From Candidatus Rokuibacteriota bacterium (GTDB taxonomy: Bacteria > Methylomirabilota > Methylomirabilia > Rokubacteriales > CSP1-6): a stretch of DNA of 64,000 bases. The translations under genes and the position numbers were made by a program. Position 1 is the first letter of the stretch. Each line of letters opens with the position of its first letter. Positions 37,098-54,121 of this stretch are shown here, piece by piece. A model generated the notes under the pieces. That model searched no databases, was not told the DNA's origin, and saw only the letters and a list, made by a program, of their open reading frames with translations. The stretch spans positions 62,001 to 126,000 of the forward strand of contig QHSX01000043.1 in the NCBI GenBank assembly GCA_003221695.1, read 5' to 3'.

Positions 37098-38003
37098 TCA
37101 GCGGCGTGCCCTGGCCTCGGCGATCAGCTTTTCCACGCGGGCGCGGTCTTCACCAGGGGGCGCCACGGCCAGAAATTTCTCCCAGGCGCGGATCGCGCCG
37201 GCCGTGTCCTGCTTCGACTCGTAGAGCACCTGGCCGCGGTAGAGCAGGGCGGGCGGGTAATTGGGGTCGATCGCCAGCGCGCGGTCCAGCGTCTCGAGCG
37301 CGGTGTCGGCGTGGCCGCCGAGCGCGACAATGAGGCCGAGATGGGTCAACGCGTCCACGTTCTTCGGGTCGCGCTTGAGGACCGCCTGATACGCGGCGAT
37401 CGCCTCGCCGTACCGTCCCTCGAAGAGACTCGCGCGCGCGGCCCGGAGCATGCCCTGGAGCACCTCGGGCGTGACGGCTCGCCCGGCCCCGGGGGGACCA
37501 CCGCCGCCAGGCGTGGGAACCGGCGGCGCGAGCGGCGCGGCCCCGACCCTCGGCGCGGCGGCGGGCCGGTCGGGCTCGGTGTAGCGAACGACGCCAGCGC
37601 CGATCGCGATCCCGAAAAGGACGAGCAGGATGGCGCCGGTCGCGAGCGCGGCCGGATGGCGCCAGGCGGAGCGCGATTCCGCGACGCCCGTCGGTGGGCG
37701 GGACGGCGCAGGCGCCGCGGGGCCGAGGCGGTCGAGCTCTGTGAGGACCGCCGCGGCCTCGCCCTCGTAGCGGGCGGAGAGCTCGGCATAGTCGGCGTCG
37801 CCGATGTGGCCCGCGTCGTGCTCGAAGCTGAGCTCGCGGAGCGCCCGAAGCGTTGCGGCCTTTCGCTCGGCGAGCTCGCCGCGCCGATCGGGCGGGAGCC
37901 TCAGGAGCACCTGCGACCGGCCGCGCGCCCCCAGGAGGGGCCACAGCGCGAACGCGAGGGCCGGGACGCCGAGGACCAGGGCCGCGACGAGGATCCCCGT
38001 CAC
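37098..38003 (-). CDS. ccmI: cytochrome c maturation protein CcmI (TPR)
   Basis: A 301-residue protein, the last gene of the ccm operon. It has an N-terminal membrane segment (ILVAALVLGVPALAFALWPLL), a cytoplasmic coil (ERKAATLRALRELSFEHDAGHIGDADYAEL) typical of CcmI/CycH, a second membrane segment (AALATGAILLVLFGIAIGAGVV) and periplasmic TPR units (GRYGEAIAAYQAVLKRDPKN and the next two). CcmI delivers apocytochrome to the haem lyase CcmFH. GTG 38003 overlaps the ccmH stop as GTGA. Confidence 0.85.
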   Translation of the reverse strand: MTGILVAALVLGVPALAFALWPLLGARGRSQVLLRLPPDRRGELAERKAATLRALRELSFEHDAGHIGDADYAELSARYEGEAAAVLTELDRLGPAAPAPSRPPTGVAESRSAWRHPAALATGAILLVLFGIAIGAGVVRYTEPDRPAAAPRVGAAPLAPPVPTPGGGGPPGAGRAVTPEVLQGMLRAARASLFEGRYGEAIAAYQAVLKRDPKNVDALTHLGLIVALGGHADTALETLDRALAIDPNYPPALLYRGQVLYESKQDTAGAIRAWEKFLAVAPPGEDRARVEKLIAEARARR

Positions 38004-38473
38004 CGCTCGGCCTCCGTCTCGCGCCGGATCCGCTCGCGCATCGCGGGATCGACGGGCAGCGCGGTCCCCGACGACGCGGGCGCTCGCGCCCACCGCCGGA
38101 CGAGCACGCTCACGATCGCGAGGCCGACGGCGACGGCGACGAGCGGTGCCGCCCAGACGAGGAGGTTGAACCCGCTTCGTCGTGGTGAGAGGAGGATCCA
38201 CTCGCCGTAGCGGTCGACGAAGTACTGGACGACCTCCCCCGGACTCTCGCCGGCCTCGAGCCGCTCGCGGACGATCGCGCGCATCTGACGCGCCATCTCC
38301 GAGGGGGAGTCGGCCACCGAGAGGTTCTGGCAGACGACGCAGCGGAGTCCTCCGGCGACCTCGTGGACTTCGGACTCGGACACGACGCGCGCGGGCGCCG
38401 GGGCGCCGCGGGCGGCGCCGGCGAGGAGCGCGGCGAGGACCAACGCGGTCAGGCGGGTGCGCCGTCCCGTCAT
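38000..38473 (-). CDS. ccmH: cytochrome c maturation protein CcmH
   Basis: A 157-residue protein with a signal peptide, the thiol-redox motif LRCVVCQNLSVADSPSEMA (CxxC with QN) and a C-terminal membrane anchor (LVWAAPLVAVAVGLAIVSVLV). YFVDRYGEWILLSPR is also conserved. CcmH reduces or holds the CxxCH cysteines of apocytochromes in the periplasm. The ATG overlaps the stop of the ccmG gene. This short form carries no TPR part, which is supplied separately by ccmI. Confidence 0.93.
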   Translation of the reverse strand: MTGRRTRLTALVLAALLAGAARGAPAPARVVSESEVHEVAGGLRCVVCQNLSVADSPSEMARQMRAIVRERLEAGESPGEVVQYFVDRYGEWILLSPRRSGFNLLVWAAPLVAVAVGLAIVSVLVRRWARAPASSGTALPVDPAMRERIRRETEAER

Positions 38474-39006
38474 GACGCGGGCTCCGCGAGCAGCCGCTCG
38501 ACGTGAGTCCGGACGACCTCGTCCGTGAGCGCGCCGACGTGCTTGGCGCGGATCCGCCCGCGCCGGTCGAGGAAGAAGGTCTCCGGCACGCCATAGGTGC
38601 CGTAATCCACGGAGACCTTGCCGGTCGGGTCGGGCGCGTTCGGGAAGCTCAGGCCGAAATCCCTCATGAACTTGCGCGCCGCCTCCACGGTGTCCTGGAT
38701 GTCGACGCCGACCACGAGGACGCCCCGGTCGCGGTACGCGCGCCAGCTTCGCTCGAGGACGGGGGCCTCCTCGTAGCACGCGGGGTAGCACCACGACGCC
38801 CAGAAGTTCAGGACGACGACGCGGCCGCGTTGGGCTTCGAGCCCGAGCGGGGTGCCGTCGAACGCGGTGAGCGTGAAGCCGGGAGCGGGCCGGCCGACGA
38901 GCGGCGAGGGAATCGCGCGCGGATCCACGCGGAAGCCGTAGGCGAGCAGCGCCAGCACGGGAAGCGCGGCGAGGGGGATGAGCCAGCGCCACGGCCGACG
39001 GCTCAC
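38470..39006 (-). CDS. ccmG: CcmG/DsbE-type thioredoxin-like protein with an unusual CxxxC site
   Basis: A 178-residue membrane-anchored thioredoxin-fold protein (anchor WLIPLAALPVLALLAYGF). It lies in ccm order between ccmF and ccmH, where CcmG/DsbE belongs. GRPAPGFTLTAFDG, VVLNFWASWCYPAC and GVPETFFLDRRGRI are the fold markers, including the cis-Pro after GV. The active site reads C-Y-P-A-C, three residues between the cysteines instead of the normal two (codons TGC TAC CCC GCG TGC). If both cysteines act, geometry must differ. GTG 39006 overlaps the ccmF stop. Confidence 0.88.
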   Translation of the reverse strand: MSRRPWRWLIPLAALPVLALLAYGFRVDPRAIPSPLVGRPAPGFTLTAFDGTPLGLEAQRGRVVVLNFWASWCYPACYEEAPVLERSWRAYRDRGVLVVGVDIQDTVEAARKFMRDFGLSFPNAPDPTGKVSVDYGTYGVPETFFLDRRGRIRAKHVGALTDEVVRTHVERLLAEPAS

Positions 39007-40946
39007 GCGGTCCTCTTCGTCTCCGGCAGGATCGCGAGCCCGGCCCCGGCCGTGAGGACGAGGCCGCCGATCCAGATCCAGCTCACGAGGCGGTTCACCT
39101 GGAACTTGACCGTCGCCCGCGAGCCGTCGCGGGCGAAGTCGCCGAGGACGAGGTAGATGTCCTCGCGGAGCCCGAGCCGGTAGTCCACGTAGGCGATCGG
39201 CGACTGCTCCTGGGGGTAGAACTTCTTCGCGGGTCGCAGGACGCCGAGGACGCGACCGTCCGAGACGGTGAAGGTGCCCGCGACCTTGAAGTGGTTCGAC
39301 TCCTCGGAGGCCGTGAGGTCTTCGAAGCGCACGCGGTAGCCGGCGAGCGCCGCGGACTGGCCGCGGTCGAGCGTCGTCTCGGTCTGCACCGACCACGCCT
39401 GCGAGCCCGTGACGCCGACCGCGATGATCAGGATGCCGAGATGGACGACGAAGCCGCCGTAGCGGCGGTTGTGGCGACGGAGGAGCCCGCCCATCGCCGG
39501 GAGGAGCGGTTCGCCCAGGCGCGCTCGCGCTCGCGTGGCCCGTGCGAAGTCCAGTGCGATCGTGGCCGCGACGAAGACGGTGAGGGCGAGCGTCAGCACG
39601 GCCAGCGCCGATCGCACGCCGAGGGCGAAGAAGAACGTCGCCGCCGCGACCCCCGTCAGCACGGGTCCGAGGAAGTTCCGCCGGAGATTGTCCACGGTCG
39701 CGCGCCGCCAGGCGATCAGCGGCCCGACACCCATGAGGAAGATGAGGCCGAGGAAGAGCGGCACGTTCACCTGGTTGAAGAAGGGCGCCCCGACCGACAC
39801 CTTGACGCCGCGCAACGCCTCGGACAAGAGCGGGAAGACCGTGCCGAAGAAGACCGTGAAGGCGGCCGCGACGAGCATGACGTTGTTCAGCAGGAACACG
39901 GACTCGCGCGACACGACGGAGTCGAGCGCGCCCTGGGCGGAGAGCGCCTCCCAGCGCCACGCGAGCAGGCCGAGCGCGCTCAGCATCACGAGGGCGAGGA
40001 AGCTCAGGAAAAAGGCACCGATCGTGCCCTGGGTGAAGGCGTGCACGGAGGCGATCACTCCAGAGCGCGTGAGGAACGTGCCGAAGAGGGTGAGACCGAA
40101 CGTCAGGATCACGAGCGCGAGGTTCCAGAGCTTCAGCATCCGTCGGCGCTCCTGGATCATGACCGAGTGCAGGAACGCGGTCGCGGTGAGCCACGGCATG
40201 AACGCCGCGTTCTCCACCGGGTCCCACGCCCAGTACCCGCCCCAGCCGAGGACGTGGTAGCTCCACCAGCCGCCGATGAGGAGCCCGAGCGAGAGGAAGT
40301 ACCAGGCGACGATCGTCCACCGCCGCGTCATCGTGATCCACGCGTCGCCGACGCGTCCGGTGCAGAGCGCCGCCATCGCGAAGGCGAAGGGGACGGTGAG
40401 ACCGGTGAAGCCGAGGTAGAGCGCGACGGGGTGCGTGATCATCCCGGTGTCCTCGAGCAGGGGGTTGAGCCCGCGGCCGTCCGCGGGCACCGGGGAGAGG
40501 CGCGCGAACGGCGGCGCCGCCACCGTGATCACCAGCAGGAAGAAGGCGAGCACCCCCAGCATGACCGTGAGGACCCACGGATAGAGCTCCCGGGCGCTCT
40601 CGCGGTGCCGGAGGATGACGATCAGCGTGTAGAGCGCGAGCATCCACGTCCAGAGGATGATCGAGCCCTCGAGGGCTCCCCAGACCCCGGTGATCCGATA
40701 GTAGAAGGGCGTTCCGAGGTTCGTGTTGGTCGCGACATAGCGCACGGAGAAGTCGAAGGTGAGGAAGGCGTACGTCAGGAGCGCGAAGCACGCGGTGACC
40801 AGGACGAAGACGCCGACCGCCGCGTGCTGGGCCGACAAGAGGAGCGCCGGACGCCCGGTGCGCTCGCCGAGCGCCGCGGCGACGGCCCCCCACAGGGCGA
40901 GGCCGAGCGCGACGATCGCCGCACCGTACCCGAGCTCGGGGATCAC
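39003..40946 (-). CDS. ccmF: cytochrome c haem lyase subunit CcmF
   Basis: A 647-residue polytopic membrane protein with about 15 membrane segments. Markers are the WWD-type motif GWGGYWAWDPVENAAFMPWL, flanking histidines (ALYLGF region and SVMIQERRRMLKLWN), and LTRSGVIASVHAFT. It docks haem from CcmE onto apocytochromes together with CcmH. A periplasmic soluble domain near the C-terminus (YRVRFEDLTASEESNHFKV) is usual. GTG 40946 overlaps the ccmE stop. Confidence 0.95.
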   Translation of the reverse strand: MIPELGYGAAIVALGLALWGAVAAALGERTGRPALLLSAQHAAVGVFVLVTACFALLTYAFLTFDFSVRYVATNTNLGTPFYYRITGVWGALEGSIILWTWMLALYTLIVILRHRESARELYPWVLTVMLGVLAFFLLVITVAAPPFARLSPVPADGRGLNPLLEDTGMITHPVALYLGFTGLTVPFAFAMAALCTGRVGDAWITMTRRWTIVAWYFLSLGLLIGGWWSYHVLGWGGYWAWDPVENAAFMPWLTATAFLHSVMIQERRRMLKLWNLALVILTFGLTLFGTFLTRSGVIASVHAFTQGTIGAFFLSFLALVMLSALGLLAWRWEALSAQGALDSVVSRESVFLLNNVMLVAAAFTVFFGTVFPLLSEALRGVKVSVGAPFFNQVNVPLFLGLIFLMGVGPLIAWRRATVDNLRRNFLGPVLTGVAAATFFFALGVRSALAVLTLALTVFVAATIALDFARATRARARLGEPLLPAMGGLLRRHNRRYGGFVVHLGILIIAVGVTGSQAWSVQTETTLDRGQSAALAGYRVRFEDLTASEESNHFKVAGTFTVSDGRVLGVLRPAKKFYPQEQSPIAYVDYRLGLREDIYLVLGDFARDGSRATVKFQVNRLVSWIWIGGLVLTAGAGLAILPETKRTA

Positions 40947-41377
40947 CGCCCGTCTCCTTTGAGCGTCCGGATCAGCTCCTTGTAGCCGGCCTGACTCGGG
41001 CCGTGCGGCGCCTTGTACTCTTCGGAGTGCTTGGCCAAGATGAGGCTGGCCCTGAAGTAGCCGTCGGCGCTCCACGTGCCCTCGACGACGGCGCCGCGGC
41101 CCTCGCCGAAGAGATCGGGCGGCGTCCCCTTGTGGCGGACGGGTACCGTCGCGGTGCCGTCGCCGAGGGTGAAGGAGAGGTCGAGCGCGCGCGGCTCCCA
41201 CCGGAGCGAGCCGGGCTGGACCATGCCACCGAGGCGGTAGGCCTTGCCCGCGACGGCCGCGGCGCGGAGCTCGGCGGGCGTCACGAAGTAGACGGCGGAC
41301 TGCGTGACGCCCGCGTAGATCATGTAGGCGAGCGCCGCGGCGATGACGGCGCCGCCAACGACGAACTTGGGCCTCAT
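40943..41377 (-). CDS. ccmE: haem chaperone CcmE
   Basis: A 144-residue periplasmic protein with an N-terminal anchor (FVVGGAVIAAALAYMIYAG), an OB-fold barrel (YRLGGMVQPGSLRW, LSFTLGDGTATVPVRHKGTPPDLF, GAVVEGTWSADG) and the haem-binding segment LILAKHSEEYKAP. The His forms the covalent bond to the haem vinyl group, and the Tyr two turns later is an axial ligand. The variant with Cys at this place found in some archaea and sulfate reducers is not used here. CcmE carries haem from CcmABCD to CcmF. Confidence 0.95.
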   Translation of the reverse strand: MRPKFVVGGAVIAAALAYMIYAGVTQSAVYFVTPAELRAAAVAGKAYRLGGMVQPGSLRWEPRALDLSFTLGDGTATVPVRHKGTPPDLFGEGRGAVVEGTWSADGYFRASLILAKHSEEYKAPHGPSQAGYKELIRTLKGDGR

Positions 41378-41387
41378 GGCAGCCGGG

Positions 41388-41573
41388 TCATCGTCGCGGG
41401 ATCGGCGGTCCCGGAGGCGCATGGGCCGGCCGGGGCTCGTCGCGCGCGGCCCCGCGCCGCCGCTCGCGCGCCGCCAGCTCACGCTCTCGACGGAGGAGCC
41501 GTCGCCAGTAGCCGCCGAGGACGAGCGCCGCGAGCCCGTAGGCGGCGAGGACGAAGGACCAGTTGTCGGGCAT
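41388..41573 (-). CDS. ccmD: CcmD-like small haem exporter subunit
   Basis: A 61-residue protein with one membrane helix (FVLAAYGLAALVLGGYW) followed by RRLLRRERELAARE, a basic cytoplasmic helix. This is the standard make-up of CcmD, which helps release holo-CcmE from the CcmABC complex. It lies in the expected place between ccmC and ccmE. The Pro/Arg-rich tail is variable. The ATG shares one base with the ccmC stop. Confidence 0.85.
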   Translation of the reverse strand: MPDNWSFVLAAYGLAALVLGGYWRRLLRRERELAARERRRGAARDEPRPAHAPPGPPIPRR

Positions 41574-42229
41574 CAGGCGAGGACCTCCTGCTCCTGCCTC
41601 AACAGGCGCACGCGCTTGGCCACGAAGTAGCCATAGAGGAGCACGAACGCGACGAGGTTGACGATGAGGGCGAGGACGAACGGTGGGTCCATCGGGGTGC
41701 TGCCGGGCCGCAGCAACGTGGCGGGCTGGTGGAGCGTCCGCCACCAGTACACCGAGAAGTGGACGAGCGGGATGTCGAGCGCGGCGACGATGCCGAGCAC
41801 CGCGGCGAACCGCGCCGCCCGCTCGCGATCCTCGATCATCGCCCGCAGCAGCAGGTAGGCGAGGTAGATGACGAACATGATCGAGACGCTCGTGAGGCGC
41901 GCATCCCACGTCCACCACGTGCCCCAGGTCGGCTTGCCCCAGATCGCACCGGTGGCAATGTTGATGGAGGTGAAGACGACGCCGACCTCGGCCGAGGCGT
42001 GCGCGAGCCGGTCCGCGCCGGCCGCGCGTCCCCAGAGGTAGATCACGGAAGCGACCAGCACCACGCCGAACGCCAGGTAGGCGACGAGGATGGCGGGCAC
42101 GTGCAGGTACATGATGCGCTGGACGTTGCCCTGCGTCGCCTCGCGCGGGGCGACGCCAAACGCCATCACGAACCCCGCGGTGAGGCCGAGCCCCGCCACC
42201 CATCCGAGCACGCGCTCTCGGCTCGTCAT
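41573..42229 (-). CDS. ccmC: haem exporter/handling protein CcmC
   Basis: A 218-residue polytopic protein with six membrane segments. The tryptophan-rich haem-binding motif is KPTWGTWWTWDARLTS, flanked by the essential histidines in MYLHVPAILVAY and IPLVHFSVYWWRTLHQP. CcmC loads haem onto CcmE. The start ATG overlaps the ccmB stop by four bases. The length is typical. Confidence 0.95.
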   Translation of the reverse strand: MTSRERVLGWVAGLGLTAGFVMAFGVAPREATQGNVQRIMYLHVPAILVAYLAFGVVLVASVIYLWGRAAGADRLAHASAEVGVVFTSINIATGAIWGKPTWGTWWTWDARLTSVSIMFVIYLAYLLLRAMIEDRERAARFAAVLGIVAALDIPLVHFSVYWWRTLHQPATLLRPGSTPMDPPFVLALIVNLVAFVLLYGYFVAKRVRLLRQEQEVLA

Positions 42230-42903
42230 GCTTCCAGGATGGCGTCGAAGGTCAGGATGCCCACGGTGAGGTAGATCGCGTCGGCGGCGGCGAGGAGTCC
42301 GAGCCAGTGCCCGACGGCGCCGAGCGGCTCGCCCAGCAGTACGGCCTCGGTCGCCTCCACCGCGCCCAGGAGCAGGGGCACCTGCACCGGCAGCAGGAGG
42401 ACGGGAAAGAGCACCTCGCGGGCCCGCACGTGCGCCGTCATCGCCGCGAAGAGCGTGCCGACGGCGGCGAAGCCAAGAGTGCCCAACCCGATGACGACGG
42501 TCAGCCGGAGCGGATGGGCGCCGAGGTCGACGTCGAAGAAGACGGCGAAGAGAACGAGCAGGACCGCCTCGACGAACAGCATCAGCACCAGATTGCCCGC
42601 GACCTTGCCGAGGTAGATCGCCGACTTGTCGCCGGGGGCCAGCAGCAGGCCCTCCCAGCAGTCGTTCTCGCGCTCGGCCAGGAACGCCCGGCCGAGCCCG
42701 ACGAGTCCGCTCAGGATGAAGCCGAGCCAGAGGAGACCCGGCATCGCCGCCGTGAGACGCTCGCGGTCGGCGCCGAGCGCGAACTGGAAGAGGAAGAGGA
42801 GCAGCAGCGCGAAAAAGAAGAGCGCGTTCAGCGTCTCCTTGGAACGCCGCTCGCTGAGGAGATCCTTCCACAGCACGATCCAGCTGCGACGCGCGTAGGT
42901 CAT
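42226..42903 (-). CDS. ccmB: ABC-type exporter membrane subunit CcmB
   Basis: A 225-residue membrane protein with six predicted segments. The N-terminal WIVLWKDLLSERRSKETLNALFFF and the AERENDCWEGLLLAPGD loop are characteristic of CcmB. It pairs with the CcmA ATPase; the complex uses ATP to free CcmE from CcmC rather than simply exporting haem. It overlaps ccmA and ccmC by four bases on each side. Confidence 0.94.
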   Translation of the reverse strand: MTYARRSWIVLWKDLLSERRSKETLNALFFFALLLLFLFQFALGADRERLTAAMPGLLWLGFILSGLVGLGRAFLAERENDCWEGLLLAPGDKSAIYLGKVAGNLVLMLFVEAVLLVLFAVFFDVDLGAHPLRLTVVIGLGTLGFAAVGTLFAAMTAHVRAREVLFPVLLLPVQVPLLLGAVEATEAVLLGEPLGAVGHWLGLLAAADAIYLTVGILTFDAILEA

Positions 42904-43619
42904 ACCCCGTCCTCCACGGAGGCCTCGTAGAGCCGCCGCACGTCGTCGGGCGTGAGGCCACCGAGGGGAGCGTCGAGCGCGAGGCGACCGGCCGCCAGGA
43001 TCGCGATCCGGTCGGCCACGCCCAGTCCGCGACCGAAGCTGTGCGTGGTCATGAGGATCGCGCCGCCGGCCGCCTTGAATCCGCCGAGATGCGCGTCGAG
43101 CCACTTGCCCGCACGCTGGTCGAGGCCCGCGTGGGGCTCGTCGAGCAGCAGAACGGACGGGCGGGCCAGGACGACGCGCGCGAGCGCGAGCCGACGCTTC
43201 ATGCCGAGCGAGAAGGTCCGCACCCGCTCGTCGGCGACGCGGTCCAGCTCGACGGCCGCGAGGGCTCCGCTGAGCGCGTCCCGGCCGTGTGGGAGCCCGC
43301 CGAGCGTCGCCCAGAATCGCAGATTTTCGACCGGGGTGAGGTCCTCGTACACCCAGGCCCCGTGCGCCAGCAGCCCCACGTGCGCGCGGACGCGCTCGGC
43401 CTCCCGCGCACAATCGTAGCCCGCTACCCGGGCCATGCCGCGCGAGGGCCTGAGGAGCGTCGCCAGGATCCGGAGCAGCGTCGTCTTGCCCGCGCCGTTC
43501 GGCCCGACGAGAGCGACCGCCTCACCGGGACGGACCTCGAGGCTCACGTCGTCCAGCACGACGTGGGCTCCAAACGCTTTGCGGAGGCCGATCACCCGGA
43601 TGGGTGGATGAAGCGCCAT
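42900..43619 (-). CDS. ccmA: ABC transporter ATPase CcmA
   Basis: A 239-residue ATPase, the first gene of the ccmABCDEFGHI operon. Walker A is [16 protein letters not shown], the signature FSLGMKRRLALARVVLARP, Walker B VLLLDEPHAGLD and the switch His in MTTHSFGRG. CcmA drives release of haem-loaded CcmE with CcmB. Upstream of the ATG lies an inverted repeat (43623-43662) that may control the operon. Confidence 0.94.
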   Translation of the reverse strand: MALHPPIRVIGLRKAFGAHVVLDDVSLEVRPGEAVALVGPNGAGKTTLLRILATLLRPSRGMARVAGYDCAREAERVRAHVGLLAHGAWVYEDLTPVENLRFWATLGGLPHGRDALSGALAAVELDRVADERVRTFSLGMKRRLALARVVLARPSVLLLDEPHAGLDQRAGKWLDAHLGGFKAAGGAILMTTHSFGRGLGVADRIAILAAGRLALDAPLGGLTPDDVRRLYEASVEDGV

Positions 43620-43824: not shown

Positions 43825-44652
43825 CTACCGCGCCGCGTCGCTCGTGAAGACCTGGTAGAGGAGGAGGATCACCGCCAGCATGTCGACCGCGCCTCCGACC
43901 GCCCACATGACGACGCCACCCAGGGCCTGGTCCTCCAGCGGGGAGAGCGTCCCGGGCTCGCGCGGGGCCGCGTAGGTGGGATAGAGCACGACGGGGCTCG
44001 CCGCGAGCAGGAGCCCGAGGGCCGCGCCCTGGAGCGCACCGGTGACGAGGTAGACGACGCGGAGCGCCGGATGGACAGGCCGGCCGAAATGGGGCGCCGG
44101 GCTGACGACGGGCCACCAGAACAGGATGGCGCTGCCGAAGAACACGAGGTGCTCGAGGTCGTGGAGGAGACGATCGCCGAGCGCCGACTCGTAGGGCCAC
44201 GGCAGATGCCAGGCCCAGAGGACCCCGGCGTGGGCGATCCACGCGACGGGCATCCGCGTCAGGGCCTGCCAGAGCCGCCGCACGGGTGCCCCACGCACGA
44301 GGAGCCGCCCGGCCCGGATCCGAGCCCGCGCCGGCAGGGTCCAGAGGAGCGCCGCGAACGGGTCGGCGAGGAGCAGGGCCGGCGCGGCGACGGCGACGAG
44401 CAGCATGTGCTGGACCATGTGGGCCGCGAACCGGCGATGCGCATGGGCGTCGAGGGGGGAGACGAGCGCCAGGGCGAGGCTGCCGAGGCCCACCAGGGTC
44501 AGCGCCGGGCGCCACCACGAGACGCGCCGCCGCGCCCGCCGTGCGAGGCGCCACCACCCGGTAGCGTAGGCAGTCCCCAGGAGCAGGAGGACGACGAGGA
44601 GTGCGGGCCGGTGCGTCCCCGTCAGCGGCGGCGGGCCAGGATCGCGACCCAC
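43825..44652 (-). CDS. CtaG-like (caa3-type) oxidase assembly membrane protein
   Basis: A protein of up to 275 residues with about seven membrane segments. It matches the caa3_CtaG family through SPLDAHAHRRFAAHMVQHMLLV, PVAWIAHAGVLWAWHLPW, LHDLEHLVFFGSAILFWWPV and the final LEDQALGGVVMWAVGG. The many His residues in membrane segments suit copper or haem handling during oxidase assembly. The GTG at 44652 overlaps the tiny gene upstream by 31 bases, so the true start may be somewhat later. It closes the oxidase gene run. Confidence 0.85.
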   Translation of the reverse strand: MGRDPGPPPLTGTHRPALLVVLLLLGTAYATGWWRLARRARRRVSWWRPALTLVGLGSLALALVSPLDAHAHRRFAAHMVQHMLLVAVAAPALLLADPFAALLWTLPARARIRAGRLLVRGAPVRRLWQALTRMPVAWIAHAGVLWAWHLPWPYESALGDRLLHDLEHLVFFGSAILFWWPVVSPAPHFGRPVHPALRVVYLVTGALQGAALGLLLAASPVVLYPTYAAPREPGTLSPLEDQALGGVVMWAVGGAVDMLAVILLLYQVFTSDAAR

Positions 44653-45196: not shown

Positions 45197-46852
45197 TTAC
45201 TCCTGGATTCCGGGGTAGTACACGCGCGGTTTACGGTCGCTGACCCGAGCGACGCCAGTCGACTCACCCGCGGGGTCGAGCGCCAGCCGCGGATGGTCGG
45301 CGCGGACGCCGGGCGAGTTGAGCGACGCCTTGGTCTCGGGGGAGAGCCGGAGCTTCTGCCCGGTCAGCGGATCTGCCCAGGCGGAGAACGAGAGCACGAA
45401 GTAGGAGATCGCCCAACGCTCCTCGTTGTTCATGGAGTCGGCGAACGAGGGCATGGGCGTGCCGTCCAGTCCGAGCGTCATCGTGCGGTAGATGTCGGTG
45501 ACGTGGGAACCGCCCTTGAACTGTCCCTTCGTGAAGTCCGCGGGGCGGATCGGAAACTTGAGGTCATCCTTGAGCTGATCGGCCGACGGTCCGTCGCCCC
45601 GCCCGGTATCGCCGTGGCACTCCCAGCACTTGGCCTTCACGTAGAGCTCCTTGCCGCGGGCGAGGAGCGCCGGTGTGGCGGGCGGCGGCGTCGGGAGGAC
45701 GATCGGCGGCTCCGGCTTCTCGTCCTTCCACCGCTGGGACAAGGTCTTGATGTACGTGATGACCGCGAGCCGATCCTTGTCGGGGATCTCATGCCACGTC
45801 GGCATCGCGGTCCAGCGGACGCCGCGCGTGATCGTGCGGAAGAGGTCGCCGTCGGTCGGCAGCGACCCGGACGGCGTCGAGCGGAACTTGAACACGCCGA
45901 GGGTGAAGTCGCGCGGCCGGGGGAAGAGGAAGGTAGCGGCGAGCCCGTTCCCGTCGCCCTTCGCCCCGTGGCAGCCGATGCAGTGCTCCGCGAAGACCTC
46001 CTCGCCGTGGGCGACAAGGTCGGCGCTCTGAGGGATGCCCATCACGGAGAGCGCCACGTTCTGCGGCTCGAAGACCTCCCGCCATGCCCCGCGATTCGTG
46101 CCCAGCTTCTGAACGTACCGCACGAGCCCGACCAGCTCTTTCGTCGGGACGACGAGGAGGACGGACGTGAGGACGGGCGGTTTGTCGGCGAAGGGCGTCA
46201 GGTCGAGGACCGGCGTGCCGTCGATCGGGAGCTCGCCGTCGGGGCGCGGGCGGACGGACACGAGCCCGGTCTCGTTAGGGAAGAGCAGCACCGGCTTGTC
46301 CTTGTTCATCGTGAAGTACCGCGCGACGGCCGGCGTCCTCTCGAGCTCGAGCCCCTCGCTCGTCTTGCGCACGGGGACCCGGGCCTGCTCGAAGAGCCAC
46401 TTGAAGCTGGGCATGATCGACTCGGGCACCACCAGGCGCGGATCCCAGTGATGGGCGTAGTGCCAGTCGTCGGCGTACTTGAGCCCCACGCGCGTCAGGT
46501 CCGGCCCGATGCGCCGGGTGGAGAAGAGGTGGGGCAAGTCGAAGGCGTACTCGCCAGCCTCGGAGACCGGGCCCCACCTGAGCTCCTCGCCGGCGACCGG
46601 CCGCACGTACTGGCTGTGGCAGTACCAGCACCCCTCGCGGATATACACGGCGCGGCCGAGCGACTCGAGGGGGGAGTAATCACTCGACTCGTACCGCACC
46701 CATTTGACGTCGCCGAGATCCGTCCGCACCGCGCGGCTGACCTGCTTCGTGCGGGACTCGGGCAAGATGGCCGGGAGAAAACCCTGGACGAACATCGCGA
46801 GCGTCACGAAGCAGAACCCGGCCCCGACCGCCAGGGATTTGATCGATCTCAT
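45197..46852 (-). CDS. ccoO: CcoO fused to a dihaem cytochrome c region (trihaem subunit)
   Basis: A 551-residue membrane-anchored cytochrome. The start is ATG 46852, followed by the anchor (LAVGAGFCFVTLAMFVQGFL). The first part is CcoO-like: EGCWYCHSQYVRPVAGEELRW carries haem 1, with RRIGPDLTRVGLKYADDWH and MPSFKWLFE as further markers. After residue 320 two more haem sites follow, EHCIGCHGAKGDGNG and AKCWECHGDTGRGDG, like the two domains of CcoP; each is followed by a likely Met ligand (TAMPTW, TPMPSF). The single chain would pass electrons from a soluble donor to CcoN. Confidence 0.88.
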   Translation of the reverse strand: MRSIKSLAVGAGFCFVTLAMFVQGFLPAILPESRTKQVSRAVRTDLGDVKWVRYESSDYSPLESLGRAVYIREGCWYCHSQYVRPVAGEELRWGPVSEAGEYAFDLPHLFSTRRIGPDLTRVGLKYADDWHYAHHWDPRLVVPESIMPSFKWLFEQARVPVRKTSEGLELERTPAVARYFTMNKDKPVLLFPNETGLVSVRPRPDGELPIDGTPVLDLTPFADKPPVLTSVLLVVPTKELVGLVRYVQKLGTNRGAWREVFEPQNVALSVMGIPQSADLVAHGEEVFAEHCIGCHGAKGDGNGLAATFLFPRPRDFTLGVFKFRSTPSGSLPTDGDLFRTITRGVRWTAMPTWHEIPDKDRLAVITYIKTLSQRWKDEKPEPPIVLPTPPPATPALLARGKELYVKAKCWECHGDTGRGDGPSADQLKDDLKFPIRPADFTKGQFKGGSHVTDIYRTMTLGLDGTPMPSFADSMNNEERWAISYFVLSFSAWADPLTGQKLRLSPETKASLNSPGVRADHPRLALDPAGESTGVARVSDRKPRVYYPGIQE

Positions 46853-46866
46853 CGCCGCCGTCGCCC

Positions 46867-48228
46867 CTAGGCCGCCCGTCGCGCGAGTGAGCCCTTCAGC
46901 AGGGTGTACACCACGAGCGACATGCCGGTATCCATCGAGATCCCGGTGAAGGTTCGGACCCACCAGTACGGGCGGATCGCGGTGACCGTGTCCAGAAACT
47001 CGCTCTGGGCCATCAGCATAAAGCCCTGTTGCAGCCCCTGCGCGCTCAGCACGAGGCCCATCGCCCCAATGCCGAGCGTGACGAGCCAGAATCCCCAGTT
47101 GGCGAGCGTGAAGCTCCAGAGCGCCGACTCCGTGATCCGCGGCCAGACGTAGATGCTACCGGCGATCGCCCAGACGACGAAGGTGCCGAACACGGTGAGG
47201 TGAGAATGGGAAATGACAAAGTCCGTGAAATGAGTCGGCTGCTGCAGCGCGCGCAAGGCCTCGAGCGAGCCCTGAAAGCAGCCGAGCAGATACATGATCG
47301 ATCCAACAATCAGGAACTTGGCCGGGAGGTTCCGGCCGAACTCCTGCCACCTGCCGATCATGGTGCCGAAGAAGTTCTGGAGCACCGTCCAGACGGGGAT
47401 GATCAGCATCATCGAGGAGACGATGGCGATCGTCTCGGCCCAGTCGGCGATCGGAGAGTAGAGGTAGTGGTGGATCCCGACGAAGGGGTAGAAGAACGCG
47501 AGCGACCAGAAGCCGATCAGTGACAGCTTGTGGCTGTAGATGGGGTTCCGAACGCTCGCCGGGAGAAAGTAATAGATGAGGACATATCCCGCCGGCGTGA
47601 TCCACAGCCCCACCACATAGTGGATGAACAGGCCGTGCCAGGCCGCATTGTTGATTCCCGGGATGTTGTACGGGCCCAGCATCAGGAGAACCAGGTTCAC
47701 GTCGGTCCAGATGAACGCGGCGATGAGGTACCAGAGCGAGACGTAGAGCGGCGTCTCCCGGCGGTTCTTGATCGTCATCAGGAACTGAAGGGTCAGCACG
47801 AGCATCGCCAGGAAGAGGACGATCACGTTGACCAGGGCGAACTCCCCCGCTTCCCAGCCGCGGTTCCAGCCGGCGGCGAGGAGGATGACGGCCACGGCCA
47901 GGTTCGCGTTCCACACCCACAAGAGCCCGTGGCTCCAGCGCCCGTTCCAGAGCCGCACTCCGCAGAGGCGCGGCACGATGTAGTGGCAGAGGCCGATGAA
48001 CAGCGTCGAGAACGCGCCCCAGATCACGCCGTTGACGTGGATGGGACGGATCCGGCCGAAGGTGAGCCAGGAACTGTTGCCGAGGAACTCGGGGTAGGTG
48101 AACTTGGTGGACAGGACGACGCCCACGGTCGGAAAGACGAGCAGCCAGAAAAACCCGCAGGCGAGCCACCTGCGGATCACCTCCCGGTCGATGACCTCGT
48201 CGTTGAGGCGCCGCGCGTCTACATTCAC
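46867..48228 (-). CDS. ccoN: cbb3-type cytochrome c oxidase subunit I (CcoN)
   Basis: A 453-residue protein with 12 membrane segments. Histidine ligands appear in RPIHVNGVIWGAF (low-spin haem), WHGLFIHYVVGLWITPAG (copper ligand and the Tyr used in the His-Tyr link of cbb3 enzymes), GIHHYLYSP (copper) and ISHSHLTVFGTFVVW (haems). It reduces oxygen to water at the membrane. It starts at GTG 48228 within the 44-bp repeat and lies 14 bases before the fused ccoO gene. It is a little shorter than proteobacterial CcoN. Confidence 0.93.
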   Translation of the reverse strand: MNVDARRLNDEVIDREVIRRWLACGFFWLLVFPTVGVVLSTKFTYPEFLGNSSWLTFGRIRPIHVNGVIWGAFSTLFIGLCHYIVPRLCGVRLWNGRWSHGLLWVWNANLAVAVILLAAGWNRGWEAGEFALVNVIVLFLAMLVLTLQFLMTIKNRRETPLYVSLWYLIAAFIWTDVNLVLLMLGPYNIPGINNAAWHGLFIHYVVGLWITPAGYVLIYYFLPASVRNPIYSHKLSLIGFWSLAFFYPFVGIHHYLYSPIADWAETIAIVSSMMLIIPVWTVLQNFFGTMIGRWQEFGRNLPAKFLIVGSIMYLLGCFQGSLEALRALQQPTHFTDFVISHSHLTVFGTFVVWAIAGSIYVWPRITESALWSFTLANWGFWLVTLGIGAMGLVLSAQGLQQGFMLMAQSEFLDTVTAIRPYWWVRTFTGISMDTGMSLVVYTLLKGSLARRAA

Positions 48229-48332: not shown

Positions 48333-49190
48333 TCACGAGAAGCGAATGGAGTGCGAGGCCTCGAATCGCCGCCCGAGGTTGTTCGTCAGGACGACCCGGA
48401 GCGGGCCCTCGGCGCGGGCGCGAAGTCTGAACGTGATGAAGGGATGATCGCTGAGGGCGGAGGTCAGCGTGAACCGACTGACCGGCGCGTCCCCGTAGAA
48501 GACGTTCAGCTCCTTCAGATAGAGGGGCTCCCCGGTCTGGACGAACTTCCCCTCCCGGAGCTCCAGCCCCGTTCGGCTCGGGTGCTTGATCTTGACCTGG
48601 ACGTCGATGATCTCGCCGGGCCCGATCCGGCCATCGGCGATGAGTTGCGGGATCCGGATCGCGGGCGGGCCGAACTCGTCGGGGCCCGTCTGGCCCGGCG
48701 GCGGCGCGGTCCCGGCGCACCCACCCGCACCCTCGGGGATCGTGATCGACCGCGAGGCCCACCAGCGGGCGTGGCGACTGCACTCGGCCGTCGCCGCGAC
48801 CTCGGAGACCCCATGATCGAGCCGCATCTGGAAGGCCACGTAGACCTGACCATTCAGCGGCGTGAAGTGGAACACGCCCTTGAGGGGAACGGGATCGCGC
48901 TCGTTCACGACGCTGACACTCGTGACGTAGTGGGCGGGATCCATCGGGTGGGACATCTCGACGGCGACCGGCACCTTGGCCCCGTTGCTGGTGAACGCGG
49001 GCAGCTTGAGCGTCGGCGAACGCAGGCCCTCGGAGGACGGGCGGGCAGCCGGATCGCCGTCGGGCGAGGATTCGGAGCGTCCGAAGACGCTCCGAACCCC
49101 ACCCACCGCCACCAGCCCCACGGCCGTCGGCACCACGCCCAGGACGTTACGCCTGGACAGCCGCGACCGTGAGGCGCTTTGCGGGTTCAT
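48333..49190 (-). CDS. fused SoxYZ-like sulfur carrier protein, Tat-exported
   Basis: A 285-residue protein with twin-arginine signal LSRRNVLGVVPTAVG. A SoxY-like domain (about 65-165; MSHPMDPAHYVTSVSVVNE) ends in EGAGGCAG, where SoxY carries its substrate on the Cys of GGCGG. A SoxZ-like domain follows (about 185-285; IRIPQLIADGRIGPGEIIDV, FYGDAPVSRFTL). In the Sox pathway the Cys arm holds thiosulfate. Related fused carriers also occur beside quinoprotein dehydrogenases, so a different cargo is possible. It is the last gene before ccoN. Confidence 0.85.
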   Translation of the reverse strand: MNPQSASRSRLSRRNVLGVVPTAVGLVAVGGVRSVFGRSESSPDGDPAARPSSEGLRSPTLKLPAFTSNGAKVPVAVEMSHPMDPAHYVTSVSVVNERDPVPLKGVFHFTPLNGQVYVAFQMRLDHGVSEVAATAECSRHARWWASRSITIPEGAGGCAGTAPPPGQTGPDEFGPPAIRIPQLIADGRIGPGEIIDVQVKIKHPSRTGLELREGKFVQTGEPLYLKELNVFYGDAPVSRFTLTSALSDHPFITFRLRARAEGPLRVVLTNNLGRRFEASHSIRFS

Positions 49191-49210
49191 TGGTGAAGCG
49201 AACGTCGTTT

Positions 49211-49666
49211 CTAGTGTCGCCCGGGGTCGAGCTTGGAGCCCTTGTTGGACCAGTAGATGTAGGTCTCCAGCGCCTTCATGGCGTCCCCGTCGGGATCGAT
49301 CTTCACCCCCTCGTTGGGCTTCTCGATGCACCAGTTGATCATGTCCCGGAGCGTCGCGAACTTGTTGATCTGCTCCTGGAACTTGGGGAATTCGTAGGGA
49401 TGGTTGTCCGAGCCGAACGGATGGCACATGGCGCAGGCCATCCCGGTCTTGGAGAGCGTGACGCGAAGCTTCTTCTCGGTGGCGCCATCGCCGTGGAAGA
49501 GCAGATCACCGATCTTGACCTGCTCCATGAACACGTCTTCGAAGGCCTTGAGCTGGTCGGGCGTGTGCTTCTCCTTGTGGGCCAACGCCTGGTCCGTCCC
49601 CGAGCTGGCGAGCATGACCAGCAGGCCGAGGAAGACACCCGTCAGTACGTATCGAGTCCCTTTCAT
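49211..49666 (-). CDS. monohaem c-type cytochrome, SoxA-like
   Basis: A 151-residue exported protein (signal YVLTGVFLGLLVMLASSG). It has one haem site, MACAMCHPFGSDNHP, and the flanking pattern GDLLFHGDGATEKKL, FPKFQEQINKFATLRDMINWCIE. The DMIN-x-C segment and KALETYIYWSNKG end resemble SoxA/TsdA-type cytochromes, in which a nearby Cys can ligate haem. It is 20 bases upstream of soxYZ in the same run. An electron carrier or thiosulfate-handling role is inferred. Confidence 0.75.
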   Translation of the reverse strand: MKGTRYVLTGVFLGLLVMLASSGTDQALAHKEKHTPDQLKAFEDVFMEQVKIGDLLFHGDGATEKKLRVTLSKTGMACAMCHPFGSDNHPYEFPKFQEQINKFATLRDMINWCIEKPNEGVKIDPDGDAMKALETYIYWSNKGSKLDPGRH

Positions 49667-49704
49667 CGCCCTCCCCCCTCCGTGGGCGTGTGCTCCGCCG
49701 GTGG

Positions 49705-50931
49705 TCACTTGTAGGCACCGTAGTACGGCCACTCGCGGTCCGCGATGCGCGGCTGCAGTATCTGATTGATGTTGTCGGCGCACCCGGAGTCCCATGGGGC
49801 GTCGGCGAAGATGTCCTTGTCTTTCCGCCACATCACATACTGGTTTTCGATCTTCCCGGCCGCGGTCATGGTGAGCCTGGACCATCCCACGCCGTCGAAG
49901 TGGTCTCCTGGATCGACCCGCACCTTGCACCGGGTCAGCACGGGCACGCCCTCCGGCGGGTAGGGCCACGTCCACGAGGTGGCGAGCATGCCGATCGACC
50001 GCATCTTCCCGATCTCGTTATAGAGCACCTGGTGGGTGTGACCGTGGACGTTGGTGACGTTGCTGTAAGGCTTGAGGACCTCGTGGACCTCGCGCCAGTC
50101 CCGCACCCAGAAGTTCCAGGGTGGGTAGTACTCGTAGAGCGGGTTGTGGGTGAAGATGACGATGGGATTGGCCTTGGGCCAGTTGGACAGCGTGCGATTG
50201 AGCCATTCGAGCTGATCGCGGCCCACGCCGGCCCACGCCCCGGCCACCGAGCCGTCCAGCGTCGCCATGTGGCCCATCCGCTCCTTGGGCGTCATCTTCT
50301 TGGCGGTCCAGTAGTCTGGGCCGCGGCTCACCGTGTCGACCCCGACGAAGCGCACGCCTTTGTGGTCGAAGGTCCAGTTCGGCGGCCCGAAGAGCTGCTG
50401 CCACTTGGCGCCCATGTCCAGGTACCAGTCGTGCTCGCCCGGGATGAAGACCTTCCGGATCTTCACCTCCTTGAGAATGTCGCTGCCGAGATCGAGCTCG
50501 ACAGGATCGCCGAGCTGGGCGAGGTCGCCCCCGTGGATCAGGAAGTCGGCCGGCGGCGACATCGCCTGGACCTCCTTGACCGCGCGGGTGGCCTTCTCGA
50601 CGAAGCGCGTGTTGACGTTCTTCGGGTAGAGGTGGTTGTCGGAGACCCAGGCGAACTTGAAGGCCTCGGCCCCGAACGCGAGGTCCAGGGTGTTGACGAG
50701 GGGGAACCACCCGTACGTCGCCGCGCCCGCGGTCGCCCCCGCCAGGAGCGATTTGTGCAAGAAGATGCGACGGGTGATCGCGAGCGAGGGATCCGGGCGC
50801 TCGCCCGGTCGCCTCAATTCCTGGTCCATCTCTTGCCGCGTGCGCCGGATCTCGGAGGACGCGCGGGCCTTCCGCCACCACGCCCTCCTGGCTTTGTCTC
50901 TCGCGAGCTCGAGTCGATCATGATCGTCCAC
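49705..50931 (-). CDS. Tat-exported calcineurin-like metallophosphoesterase
   Basis: A 408-residue protein starting at GTG 50931 with an AGGAGG about ten bases away. A twin-arginine signal, ITRRIFLHKSLLAGATAG, lies unusually far in (near residue 45) behind a charged region. The dinuclear metal site is complete: SDNHLY, GGDLAQLGDP, GEHDWYLD (Glu in place of Asn), FTHNPLY and VHGHTH. This superfamily includes phosphatases and the thiosulfohydrolase SoxB, but length and the C-terminal half do not match SoxB. Its place beside soxYZ suggests a periplasmic hydrolytic step. Confidence 0.8.
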   Translation of the reverse strand: MDDHDRLELARDKARRAWWRKARASSEIRRTRQEMDQELRRPGERPDPSLAITRRIFLHKSLLAGATAGAATYGWFPLVNTLDLAFGAEAFKFAWVSDNHLYPKNVNTRFVEKATRAVKEVQAMSPPADFLIHGGDLAQLGDPVELDLGSDILKEVKIRKVFIPGEHDWYLDMGAKWQQLFGPPNWTFDHKGVRFVGVDTVSRGPDYWTAKKMTPKERMGHMATLDGSVAGAWAGVGRDQLEWLNRTLSNWPKANPIVIFTHNPLYEYYPPWNFWVRDWREVHEVLKPYSNVTNVHGHTHQVLYNEIGKMRSIGMLATSWTWPYPPEGVPVLTRCKVRVDPGDHFDGVGWSRLTMTAAGKIENQYVMWRKDKDIFADAPWDSGCADNINQILQPRIADREWPYYGAYK

Positions 50932-50987
50932 TGCGGTCGCCTCCTTCCCACCGCGTCCAGTCGTGTCGGACGGAACCGAGTGACGCG

Positions 50988-51713
50988 CTACTTCTTGAGC
51001 TCCACCGTAACGGGCACCACCTCCTTGGCCTTGACGCTGACGGGGGTCTCGGCCTCCCCCGCGTACTCCTGCCACGTCACGAGCGTGTAGGAGCCCGGCG
51101 GGACGTTGGCGAGCGTGAAGGTCCCGTCGGTTGCGGTCACCGCATAATAGGGGTTGTCCGCGACGTAGACCCAGCCGAGCATCCAGCCGTGGGCGTCGCA
51201 CTCCACGCGGACGAGCCCCGACTTCTTGAGCTGCCGCTTGATCCGCTGGTTCTGGTTCGGCAGGGCCACGTTGAACGCGGTCAGCTTCCCGTAAAACCCG
51301 TGCGTGTTGTGCAGCACGGGATCCGAGTTGACGATCTCGAAGTCGCCGGCCGGGACGACCTGCACGTGCGGCTTGAAATCGCATTTGACGTTGTCGATGT
51401 GCGGGGTGCCCGCTGGCTTTTCCCAGGCCTTTCCTTTCTCGACGTTCTTGAGATACACCACCGCGTCCTGGACCGCCTTGTCAGGTCCGACCAGGATCAG
51501 TTCCACCTCGCGCACGCCGCTGCCGCACGTCTCTCGATCCTTGGTGGGGATGACCTTCCGCTTGTCGGGAGGGCTCCCCTGGAAGAGCACCTTGCCCTTG
51601 ATGGTGCCCCCGTCGCTCACGGCCACGACCTCGTAGGGCTCTCCCGGGACCGGCCACCCGGCCGCCAGGGCGGCGACCGCGAGCGCCAGGGTTGTCACTC
51701 GAGCACGCGTCAT
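50988..51713 (-). CDS. secreted cupredoxin-like protein with carboxypeptidase-regulatory-like end
   Basis: A 241-residue exported protein (signal VTTLALAVAALAAG). After GGTIKGKVLFQGSPP, a cupredoxin-like region spans about residues 75-180. The potential copper ligands are His in PVLHNTHGFYG, Cys and His in VECDAHGWMLGW and the following Met. Its closest look-alikes are described as plastocyanin/azurin-domain or methylamine-utilisation proteins. Residues 180-241 form a small CarboxypepD_reg-like beta sandwich (GTFTLANVPPGSYTLVTW). It may pass electrons to the cytochromes nearby. Confidence 0.7.
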   Translation of the reverse strand: MTRARVTTLALAVAALAAGWPVPGEPYEVVAVSDGGTIKGKVLFQGSPPDKRKVIPTKDRETCGSGVREVELILVGPDKAVQDAVVYLKNVEKGKAWEKPAGTPHIDNVKCDFKPHVQVVPAGDFEIVNSDPVLHNTHGFYGKLTAFNVALPNQNQRIKRQLKKSGLVRVECDAHGWMLGWVYVADNPYYAVTATDGTFTLANVPPGSYTLVTWQEYAGEAETPVSVKAKEVVPVTVELKK

Positions 51714-51757: not shown

Positions 51758-52576
51758 TCAGAGGTGAGCCGACGGACGCGGCAGGGGCTCGAGCTTCTCT
51801 TCTGGCGCGTGGCACATCAGGCACGCCCGATCCCCGATCTCCGAGACGAGCGTGTATCCGGCGCCCTGGGACCGCCAGATCACGACGTCGTAGCCGCGGT
51901 GGCTGACCACCTTGAACCGCGGCTTGTCATTCAACCGCAGCTGGCGGTAGGCCTCCTCCGGGATGATGAAGAGCGAGACGTTGTTCCCGTCGACTCGATA
52001 CTCGAGGGCCGCCACTTCAATCTCCCGCAGGTGGGAGATCCGCCCGCCGAGGAAGTGGAGACGCTCGGTCTTCAGCTCCGGCAGGCTCACGTTGAAGGCG
52101 AGCCGTTTCTTGAACCACTCCTCGGCGACCTTCGGCGACACGTCCTTGATATCGGGCGGCAGGAGGTCTCGGACGAGCTTCTGATGCTGCTCCACGGCGG
52201 CATCCGCCAGCTCGGCGAGCGTGGTTCTGGTTCCGACGTAGGACTGCAGGGCGATACCGACGCCCAGTCCGAGGGCGAGAAGGAGCACGCCGGCCGCGCC
52301 GACAGCGAGTCGCTCGATCCGGCGCCGTCCGCGACCGGGGCGTCGCCCCTCGCCGAGCCCGCGCAGGAGCGTGGCGACGCGCTCGCGCACGGCCTCCGGC
52401 GCCGGGTCCGGTGAGAACCGCTCGACGTAGGTCTCCCGGAACGCGACCTCGAGGTCGGCGAGTCGACGGCACGCGCCACACCGCGCCAGGTGCGCCTCGA
52501 GCTGGTCCCGGACCTCCGGGGGGAGCTCCGCGTCGACATAGGGGAACAGTTTCGACTTCGCCGTACTACAGTCCAT
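51758..52576 (-). CDS. membrane anti-sigma factor with a C-terminal CxxCH haem motif
   Basis: A 272-residue protein whose gene overlaps the ECF sigma gene by 11 bases. The N-terminus is a zinc anti-sigma domain with EAHLARCGACRRL (HxxxCxxC). A single membrane helix (AVGAAGVLLLALGLGVGIAL, near residue 100) follows, then a periplasmic domain of about 150 residues. The last 20 residues contain GDRACLMCHAPEEKL, a CxxCH motif for covalent haem. The haem site is on the periplasmic side, where the Ccm system works. This suggests that release of the sigma factor depends on haem or redox state; that is inference. Confidence 0.8.
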   Translation of the reverse strand: MDCSTAKSKLFPYVDAELPPEVRDQLEAHLARCGACRRLADLEVAFRETYVERFSPDPAPEAVRERVATLLRGLGEGRRPGRGRRRIERLAVGAAGVLLLALGLGVGIALQSYVGTRTTLAELADAAVEQHQKLVRDLLPPDIKDVSPKVAEEWFKKRLAFNVSLPELKTERLHFLGGRISHLREIEVAALEYRVDGNNVSLFIIPEEAYRQLRLNDKPRFKVVSHRGYDVVIWRSQGAGYTLVSEIGDRACLMCHAPEEKLEPLPRPSAHL

Positions 52577-53141
52577 CATTCCGCACGCCGATCTCCGTCT
52601 CACCGGGCCGCTGCGGCGACTCGATGAGGTAGGTTCGGAGCAGGTTCCGGCCGCGATAGAGTCGTGACATCACGGTGCCCACCGGGCGGCTGACGATCGT
52701 CGCGATCTCTCGGTACGAGAGACCCTCGATGTCGCGGAGCTCGACGATCTCCCTGAGCAGCGGGGGCAGGTGACGGATCGCTTCCCGCACCTGCTCGACC
52801 GTCTCACGACGGAGGAGGATGTCCTCGGGGGCGAGGGGAATGGCGCACAGTGGACTCTCCATCGACACCACCGGCTCCCTTTCCTTCTCGCTCCCCAGAG
52901 GTTCGTCCGCGGGGTGGGTCCGCCGCCGCCGCTGCCGATCGATCTGGGCGTTCCGCATGATCGTGAAGATCCAGGGCTTGAAGCTCTGCGACCGGTCGAA
53001 CGCGTGGAAGGCTTCGTAGGAGCGGACCAGACTCTCCTGGAGGAGGTCCTCGGCATCCTGCCGTGCGAGCACGAGCGCGTAGTTGTACAGGGAATTGAGG
53101 TACTTATCGACCAAATCCTGGAACTCGGATCTGTTGTCCAC
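52566..53141 (-). CDS. ECF (RpoE-type) sigma factor
   Basis: A 191-residue sigma factor, with region 2 (DKYLNSLYNYALVLARQDAEDLLQESL, SFKPWIFTIMRNAQID split across the core- and -10-binding helices) and region 4 (LPPLLREIVELRDIEGLSYREIA, then RPVGTVMSRLYRGRNLLR). GTG 53141 gives the usual family start; GTG 53174 would add 11 residues. The anti-sigma gene follows directly. As the first gene of the block that holds the Sox-like and oxidase genes, it is the likely regulator of these. Confidence 0.88.
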   Translation of the reverse strand: MDNRSEFQDLVDKYLNSLYNYALVLARQDAEDLLQESLVRSYEAFHAFDRSQSFKPWIFTIMRNAQIDRQRRRRTHPADEPLGSEKEREPVVSMESPLCAIPLAPEDILLRRETVEQVREAIRHLPPLLREIVELRDIEGLSYREIATIVSRPVGTVMSRLYRGRNLLRTYLIESPQRPGETEIGVRNDGL

Positions 53142-53180
53142 AGCTCCCCCGGAGCGTGCCCGGCCACCACTCACTAGTAC

Positions 53181-53206
53181 TACGTGCGCGCGGCCAGCTT
53201 ATTCCC
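53181..53206 (-). promoter_or_regulatory. candidate ECF-type promoter upstream of the sigma factor gene
   Basis: Read on the minus strand, GGGAATAA (53206-53199) is followed after 14 bases by CGTA (53184-53181). GGAAT-type -35 and CGTA-type -10 elements are common for ECF sigma factors, which usually activate their own genes. Spacing is slightly short. Confidence 0.4.
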
Positions 53207-53269: not shown

Positions 53270-54121
53270 CTAGAACCGCATCGTCCGGAGGCGTGCGATC
53301 CGCTCCTCGAGGGGTGGGTGTGTCGAGAAGAGCCGCATCAGGACATCGCCGCGGAGCGGATTCACGATGAAGAGGTGCGCGGTCGACGGGTTGGCCGCCA
53401 TCGGCGCGACCTCGTTGGCACGCTCGAGCTTCTCGAGGGCGCTGGCGAGCCCCAGCGGCCGGCCCGCCACACGCGCGCCGGTCGCATCGGCCTGGAACTC
53501 CCGCGCGCGCGAGACGGCGAGCTGGACGAGCATCGCCGCCAGTGGTGCCAGGACGGCCATCAGGATCAGCCCGAGCGGGTTGCCGCCCCGATCCTCGTCG
53601 TCGCTCGCGCGCCCGCCGCCGAACATGGCCGCCCACTGCGCCATGTGGGCCAGGTAGGTGATCGCGCCGGCGAGCGTGGCCGCGATCGTGGAGATCAGCA
53701 CGTCGCGGTTCTTCACGTGCGCCAGCTCGTGCGCGAGGACGCCCTCGAGCTCGTCGTCGTTGAGGAGGCGCATGATGCCCTCGGTCACGGCCACCGCCGC
53801 GTGGTGCGGGTCGCGCCCCGTCGCGAACGCGTTGGGCGTGTCCGTCGGGATCAGGTAGACGCGGGGCATCGGCAGGCTGGCGCGGGTCGTGAGTCGTCGG
53901 ACGATCGCGTAGAGACCGGGCGCCTGCGCTTCGTCGACGGGCTGGGCGCGGTACATGGCGAGCACGATCTTGTCGGAGAACCAATAGCTCCCGAGGTTCA
54001 TCAGGAGCGCCAGGACGAAGGCGACGAGCATGCCCTGGCGGCCGCCGAACGCGCCGCCGATCAGCACGAGCATGGCCGTGAGGACGGCCAGCAGCATTGC
54101 GGTCTTGAAAATGTTCGACAT
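53270..54121 (-). CDS. htpX: membrane zinc metalloprotease HtpX
   Basis: A 283-residue M48 protease. Two N-terminal membrane helices ([36 protein letters not shown]) come before the zinc site [13 protein letters not shown] and the third ligand in [13 protein letters not shown]; two further hydrophobic segments flank it. HtpX degrades misfolded membrane proteins. It stands alone, 95 bases from the sigma factor gene and divergent from the yceD operon. The C-terminal [13 protein letters not shown] is conserved. Confidence 0.95.

Follow-up and report, generated by a model that had tools for sequence, protein, structure and literature searches.

A zinc anti-sigma factor with a putative haem c site, paired with an ECF sigma factor ahead of a redox operon in Rokubacteria

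Related sensors and anti-sigma factors

Sensors that carry c-type haem have been described for kinases, chemoreceptors and cyclic-di-GMP enzymes; anti-sigma factors, for their part, occur with many kinds of periplasmic sensor. To our knowledge, none of the ZAS-type anti-sigma factors described so far bears a CxxCH motif on its periplasmic domain. Membrane anti-sigma factors of this type (RsiW and other zf-HC2 proteins) share an N-terminal zinc domain and a gene that overlaps the upstream ECF gene, and both features are found in the protein considered here, which is encoded in the window (the whole stretch of 64,000 nucleotides that was analysed).

A precedent for a periplasmic sensor acquiring CxxCH and binding NO is provided by sCache_heme: periplasmic Cache sensors apparently acquired the motif on a scaffold that had lacked it, and the versions joined to signalling modules have NO-sensor properties (PMC12889525, a 2026 preprint). 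The sCache_heme/DUF3365 proteins, such as Tll0287, GSU0582 and GSU0935, resemble the present system in combining a periplasmic CxxCH domain with different signalling outputs (PMC12889525). They also differ from it: in sCache_heme the motif is placed in a loop that precedes the last strand, whereas here it is found at the domain's C-terminal end, and here the output is an anti-sigma factor, while the word “sigma” is absent from that paper (PMC12889525). The sCache_heme profile PF11845 (DUF3365/Tll0287) gave no match to the anti-sigma factor at E<=0.1.

From the side of regulation, RpoE4 of Sinorhizobium and SigE of Starkeya belong to local, sulphite-responsive ECF/anti-sigma pairs with an adjacent sulphur-redox operon, and azurin and cytochrome c are among the genes shown in a figure of the same paper (PMC6527743). 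Their operon is that of a sulphite oxidase, whereas here it contains SoxYZ and a cbb3-like oxidase, and the portions of PMC6527743 drawn on here report no haem motif in the anti-sigma factors. No published haem c anti-sigma factor was found in text searches of open-access papers, in keeping with the original prediction, for which no described example of this exact build was known, and haem goes unmentioned in one anti-sigma survey. Given its conserved motif in three bacterial lineages and its apparent control of its own operon, the protein probably senses through haem, and no description of such a sensor was found in these papers.

The gene pair, its promoter and the build of the anti-sigma factor

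The ECF gene (52566..53141, minus strand; GTG start at 53141, stop TAG at 52566-52568) encodes 191 residues with Pfam matches above cut-off to Sigma70_r2 (2.9e-14) and Sigma70_r4_2 (4.3e-17). The same search gave no match to region 1 or region 3, so that the protein has the make-up of an ECF sigma factor, namely sigma-70 regions 2 and 4 only in about 190 residues. The gene overlaps by 14 bp that of the anti-sigma factor, a 273-residue transmembrane zinc protein with a C-terminal CxxCH (51758..52579, minus strand; start ATGATGGAC at 52579, stop ending at 51758). The ECF gene adjoins the anti-sigma gene upstream in 14/14 Rokubacteria loci, and also in G191, G388 and G457. At one of the Rokubacteria loci, that of G041 (L051:11837-12360, minus strand), it is seemingly split, with two tblastn segments in different frames, which may reflect decay or an assembly error; the promoter motif and the CxxCH anti-sigma factor are intact there despite the split.

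Upstream of the pair lies a putative ECF-type promoter, GGAATAAGCTGGCCGCGCGCACGTAG (53180..53205, minus strand), with a -35 box GGAATAA, a gap of 14 nt and a -10 box CGTAG. When the upstream DNA was aligned, each of the 14 Rokubacteria loci showed GGAATAA-N14/15-CGTA 5' of its ECF gene. A strict pattern, GGAATAA-N13-15-CGTAS, was used for genome-wide counts, and 13 of the 14 genomes bearing the pair gave a single match, each at the position of the ECF promoter, the exception being G066, where CGTAA differs at a single base. Among the remaining 81 genomes there were 13 scattered matches, no more than the reversed-pattern control gave across the set. Since the pattern occurs just once in those 13 genomes, at its own locus, the sigma factor appears to have one strong target, which would be its own operon. 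Outside the phylum, a GGGAATAA box adjoins the pair in G457 and G388, followed by a -10 box different from that of Rokubacteria, and these boxes are only suggestive of promoters of the same kind. In G457, a divergent region (L124:10501-10960) carries GGGAATAA toward a beta-propeller/oxidase operon and GGGAATAG toward the ECF gene, which suggests that one sigma factor may serve both directions.

The anti-sigma factor begins with a zf-HC2 zinc domain (residues 4-38; 52466..52570, minus strand; PF13490, 5.7e-9), in which C4, H30, C34 and C37 form the C/H...HxxxCxxC arrangement of ZAS proteins. A single transmembrane helix follows at residues ~91-111 (52247..52309, minus strand), as judged by hydropathy and by a positive-inside count; seven Lys or Arg residues flank it on the cytoplasmic side and one on the other, and the C-terminus is therefore predicted to be periplasmic. 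The motif CLMCH (residues 253-257; 51809..51823, minus strand) is thus placed in a predicted extracytoplasmic segment, where a c-type haem site is expected, and its CxxCH is invariant in 19/19 members. Zinc domain, single membrane helix and periplasmic domain with a haem c motif had all been read from this DNA before, and the PF13490 match, the hydropathy and the conservation of the motif bear that reading out. That the protein “ends in” the motif was loosely put: it is present, but 16 residues follow it, so that it falls within the last 21 residues. The family profile matched chains of RsrA, RsiW and ChrR in the PDB, and for the periplasmic part no convincing match was obtained among solved PDB chains; an AlphaFold2 model built from six sequences had a mean pLDDT of 42 and was unusable for assigning a fold.

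Outside the motif, His132 (52184..52186, minus strand) is the only invariant His or Met, which leaves it as the sole strong candidate for distal haem ligation. However, it is invariant in the CxxCH-less paralogues as well and therefore need not bind haem. Such paralogues, encoded in the same genomes (e.g. L002, G000:C67), share the domain order and H132, S202 and W235, but differ in their low identity (24-33%) and in a C-terminus of the LVSDLDxxEL type. Across the wider CxxCH-less anti-sigma family, whose periplasmic domain has no Pfam model, His132, Ser202 and Trp235 are likewise invariant.

Conservation of the motif and of its genomic surroundings

The anti-sigma protein was searched for in 95 genomes of the phylum and in a wider sample outside it, so that the spread described here is a lower bound. 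Within the phylum, a tight group of 16 proteins from 15 genomes was recovered (domain profile E 1e-79 or better, against 6e-23 for the next best). CxxCH is present in all 16 Rokubacteria copies, which are 44-92% identical, with LM, LV, HV, VV or RV as middle residues. Three more members were found outside the phylum, in G191 and G388 (CVVCH) and in G457 (CIVCH), that of G191 at 28% identity; the placing of G191/G388 and of G457 in different phyla rests on two distinct genome sets, one per phylum, of 4 and 5 genomes. Poor conservation of the motif would have spoken against the original prediction; instead, it is kept in 19/19 members from three lineages in all, with the variable middle residues extended by IV. 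None of the 42 collected related sequences (about 40 of them distinct) contains CxxCH anywhere. A chance occurrence was ruled out, because the motif is conserved in every member while its middle residues vary, and is missing from the relatives. A search of plasmids for relatives gave five weak matches, and the two examined (Gemmatirosa and Cupriavidus) lack CxxCH. As to the origin of the motif, the best tree needs two changes, and a single clade is not rejected (p-AU 0.116), the G457 row in this tree being cut short.

The domain is also found with a different partner. In G040 and G041, one open reading frame joins a membrane helix and the CxxCH domain to a CheY-like receiver (PF00072, 1.1e-24 and 1.8e-23, respectively), which replaces the zinc domain (L055:11010-12086, minus strand, and L056:8383-9411, plus strand). 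G041 encodes both forms, one receiver version and one anti-sigma version. As the domain is shared by receiver fusions and anti-sigma factors, it can be argued that it behaves as a portable sensor module for more than one output. The fusions occupy a conserved locus that lacks a neighbouring ECF gene and have the unusual layout of a receiver-first membrane protein.

In the window, the pair is followed on the minus strand by genes for an exported cupredoxin-like protein with a C-terminal carboxypeptidase-regulatory-like domain (50988..51713; PF13620/PF14686), whose copper-type motif CDAHGWM was read from the sequence; an exported metallophosphatase (Metallophos, 49705..51090; PF00149, 7e-11; start codon provisional); a single-haem SoxA/TsdA-type cytochrome c (49211..49678; PF21342, 5.8e-8); and a fused SoxY-SoxZ-like carrier (48333..49250; PF13501, 5.9e-20, and PF08770, 3.9e-14). 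Next come a CcoN-like subunit I of a cbb3-type oxidase (46867..48228; PF00115, 2.8e-71), CcoO fused to two cytochrome c domains (45197..46852; PF02433, 2.2e-46, with PF00034 and PF13442), small membrane proteins and a CtaG-type oxidase assembly factor (43825..44652; PF09678, 3.8e-57). The System I Ccm genes (CcmA, B, C, E, F, G, H and a CcmI-like gene; 37098..43619, minus strand) adjoin the operon. The exported redox proteins, cbb3-like oxidase and Ccm set named as neighbours at the outset are thus all present. Against the PDB, the CcoN-like protein matched cbb3 CcoN (2.3e-47) far better than NorB (2.7e-8) and its helix-VII tyrosine aligns, on which grounds a nitric oxide reductase was set aside.

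Within the limits of the contigs, the operon order after the pair is kept in 12/14 Rokubacteria loci; of the other two, one is cut off by the end of its contig and that of G041 consists of the pair alone. For this count, L050 stops after the cytochrome, L042 breaks off inside CcoO, and L053 and L054 gave no match for the cupredoxin. In G457, the same respiratory/SoxYZ cluster is divergent from the pair, behind the beta-propeller gene, and in G191 and G388 the pair faces genes for cytochrome c peroxidase, glutaredoxin, CcdA and Ccm proteins. In the g22 genomes, the CcoN-like and CcoO-cytochrome genes occur a second time, between the ECF pair and HtpX (L045:13779-16714, L046:7645-10580).

A candidate haem switch and its alternatives

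The invariant Cys, Cys and His, their periplasmic side and the occurrence of Ccm in every genome encoding the protein argue for c-type haem. Indeed, CcmE, taken as a marker of the System I machinery, is present in 18/18 genomes with the CxxCH protein vs 5/14 control genomes. We therefore favour, with a probability of roughly 0.6, an autoregulated ECF sigma/anti-sigma switch in which the periplasmic sensor domain of the anti-sigma factor would carry c-type haem. In the resting state, the sigma factor would stay bound to the zinc domain at the inner membrane. Ccm would join haem to C253 and C256, with H257 as the proximal ligand and H132 as the likeliest distal one. A change at the haem, whether of oxidation state or through a small ligand (e.g. 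NO or another redox-active compound), would alter the periplasmic domain, and the sigma factor would be released, by conformational change or by proteolysis. Once free, it would drive transcription from essentially one promoter, its own, giving more cupredoxin, metallophosphatase, cytochrome c, SoxYZ carrier and cbb3-like oxidase. However, the genes around the pair would suit more than one signal, be it O2, NO, redox poise, sulphur species or copper.

The operon, with its cupredoxin, copper oxidase and SoxYZ carrier, would also suit an alternative in which CxxCH serves as a thiol or metal switch, forming a disulphide or binding copper, zinc or persulphide, so that the signal would be thiol redox, copper or the sulphur species borne by SoxYZ. 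Cysteine occupies the second-Cys column in 9/18 aligned paralogues, and the sulphite-responsive pairs that run sulphite oxidase operons in Sinorhizobium and Starkeya, as presented in the portions of PMC6527743 drawn on here, point the same way. However, a plain CxxC needs no histidine, and yet one follows the second cysteine in 19/19 members, while that column holds alanine in all 18 aligned paralogues, which lack CxxCH; the Ccm machinery in every genome with the protein also tells against this explanation, which we consider unlikely.

Less probable still is that a haemylated switch reports Ccm capacity, an anti-sigma factor left without haem being unstable and so freeing the sigma factor to raise expression of the oxidase genes and of linked Ccm genes. 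In the window the Ccm genes come downstream of the pair; they also adjoin the operon in its nearest relatives and in a second lineage, and G001, G045, G086, G191 and G388 have them close to the pair on one contig. Furthermore, no terminator-like site was found from the oxidase genes to CcmA. Nevertheless, a sigma-70-like site stands directly before CcmA, so that Ccm may be transcribed on its own, and the pair-bearing genomes hold no second promoter match for an unlinked Ccm operon. Ccm is, moreover, unlinked in most of the deeper orthologues: CcmE is on a different contig in G039, G040, G041, G054, G066, G067, G072, G085, G087 and G457. Ccm linkage was accordingly rejected as a conserved part of the system, and these ten genomes weaken the original prediction that the anti-sigma factor reports Ccm capacity. 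Of the arrangement first proposed, with the pair preceding both a redox operon and Ccm, the operon linkage and the promoter are conserved, but the adjacency of Ccm is not.

That the protein is an ordinary envelope-stress membrane anti-sigma factor, in which CxxCH is a lineage feature with no signalling role, would agree with its otherwise standard zf-HC2 make-up and its many CxxCH-less paralogues, but is very improbable given strict conservation of the motif at 28-92% identity, its persistence in the receiver fusions, where there is no zinc domain, and the recurrent linkage to haem proteins.

The favoured haem switch, if correct, would provide a one-step path from periplasmic redox state to transcription, and the apparently dedicated, nearly single-site promoter would lend itself to an easy reporter test; the receiver fusions would mean that the module moves between output types. 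A broader proposal, which we put forward only tentatively and hold to be rather doubtful, is that a small c-haem module, portable between anti-sigma and receiver outputs, sits on a covalently haemylated anti-sigma factor and directly links the freeing of the sigma factor to electron flow in the periplasm or to the maturation of haem c itself.

Just upstream of the ECF promoter, the window encodes an HtpX (M48) membrane protease (53270..54121, minus strand; NCBIfam HtpX, 1.7e-119), found in this position in the nearest relatives only. A further protein, with an HEFGH motif like that of site-2 proteases, is encoded at 60654-61802 of the window, 7 kb beyond HtpX, and both proteins are possible candidates for partners in sigma release.
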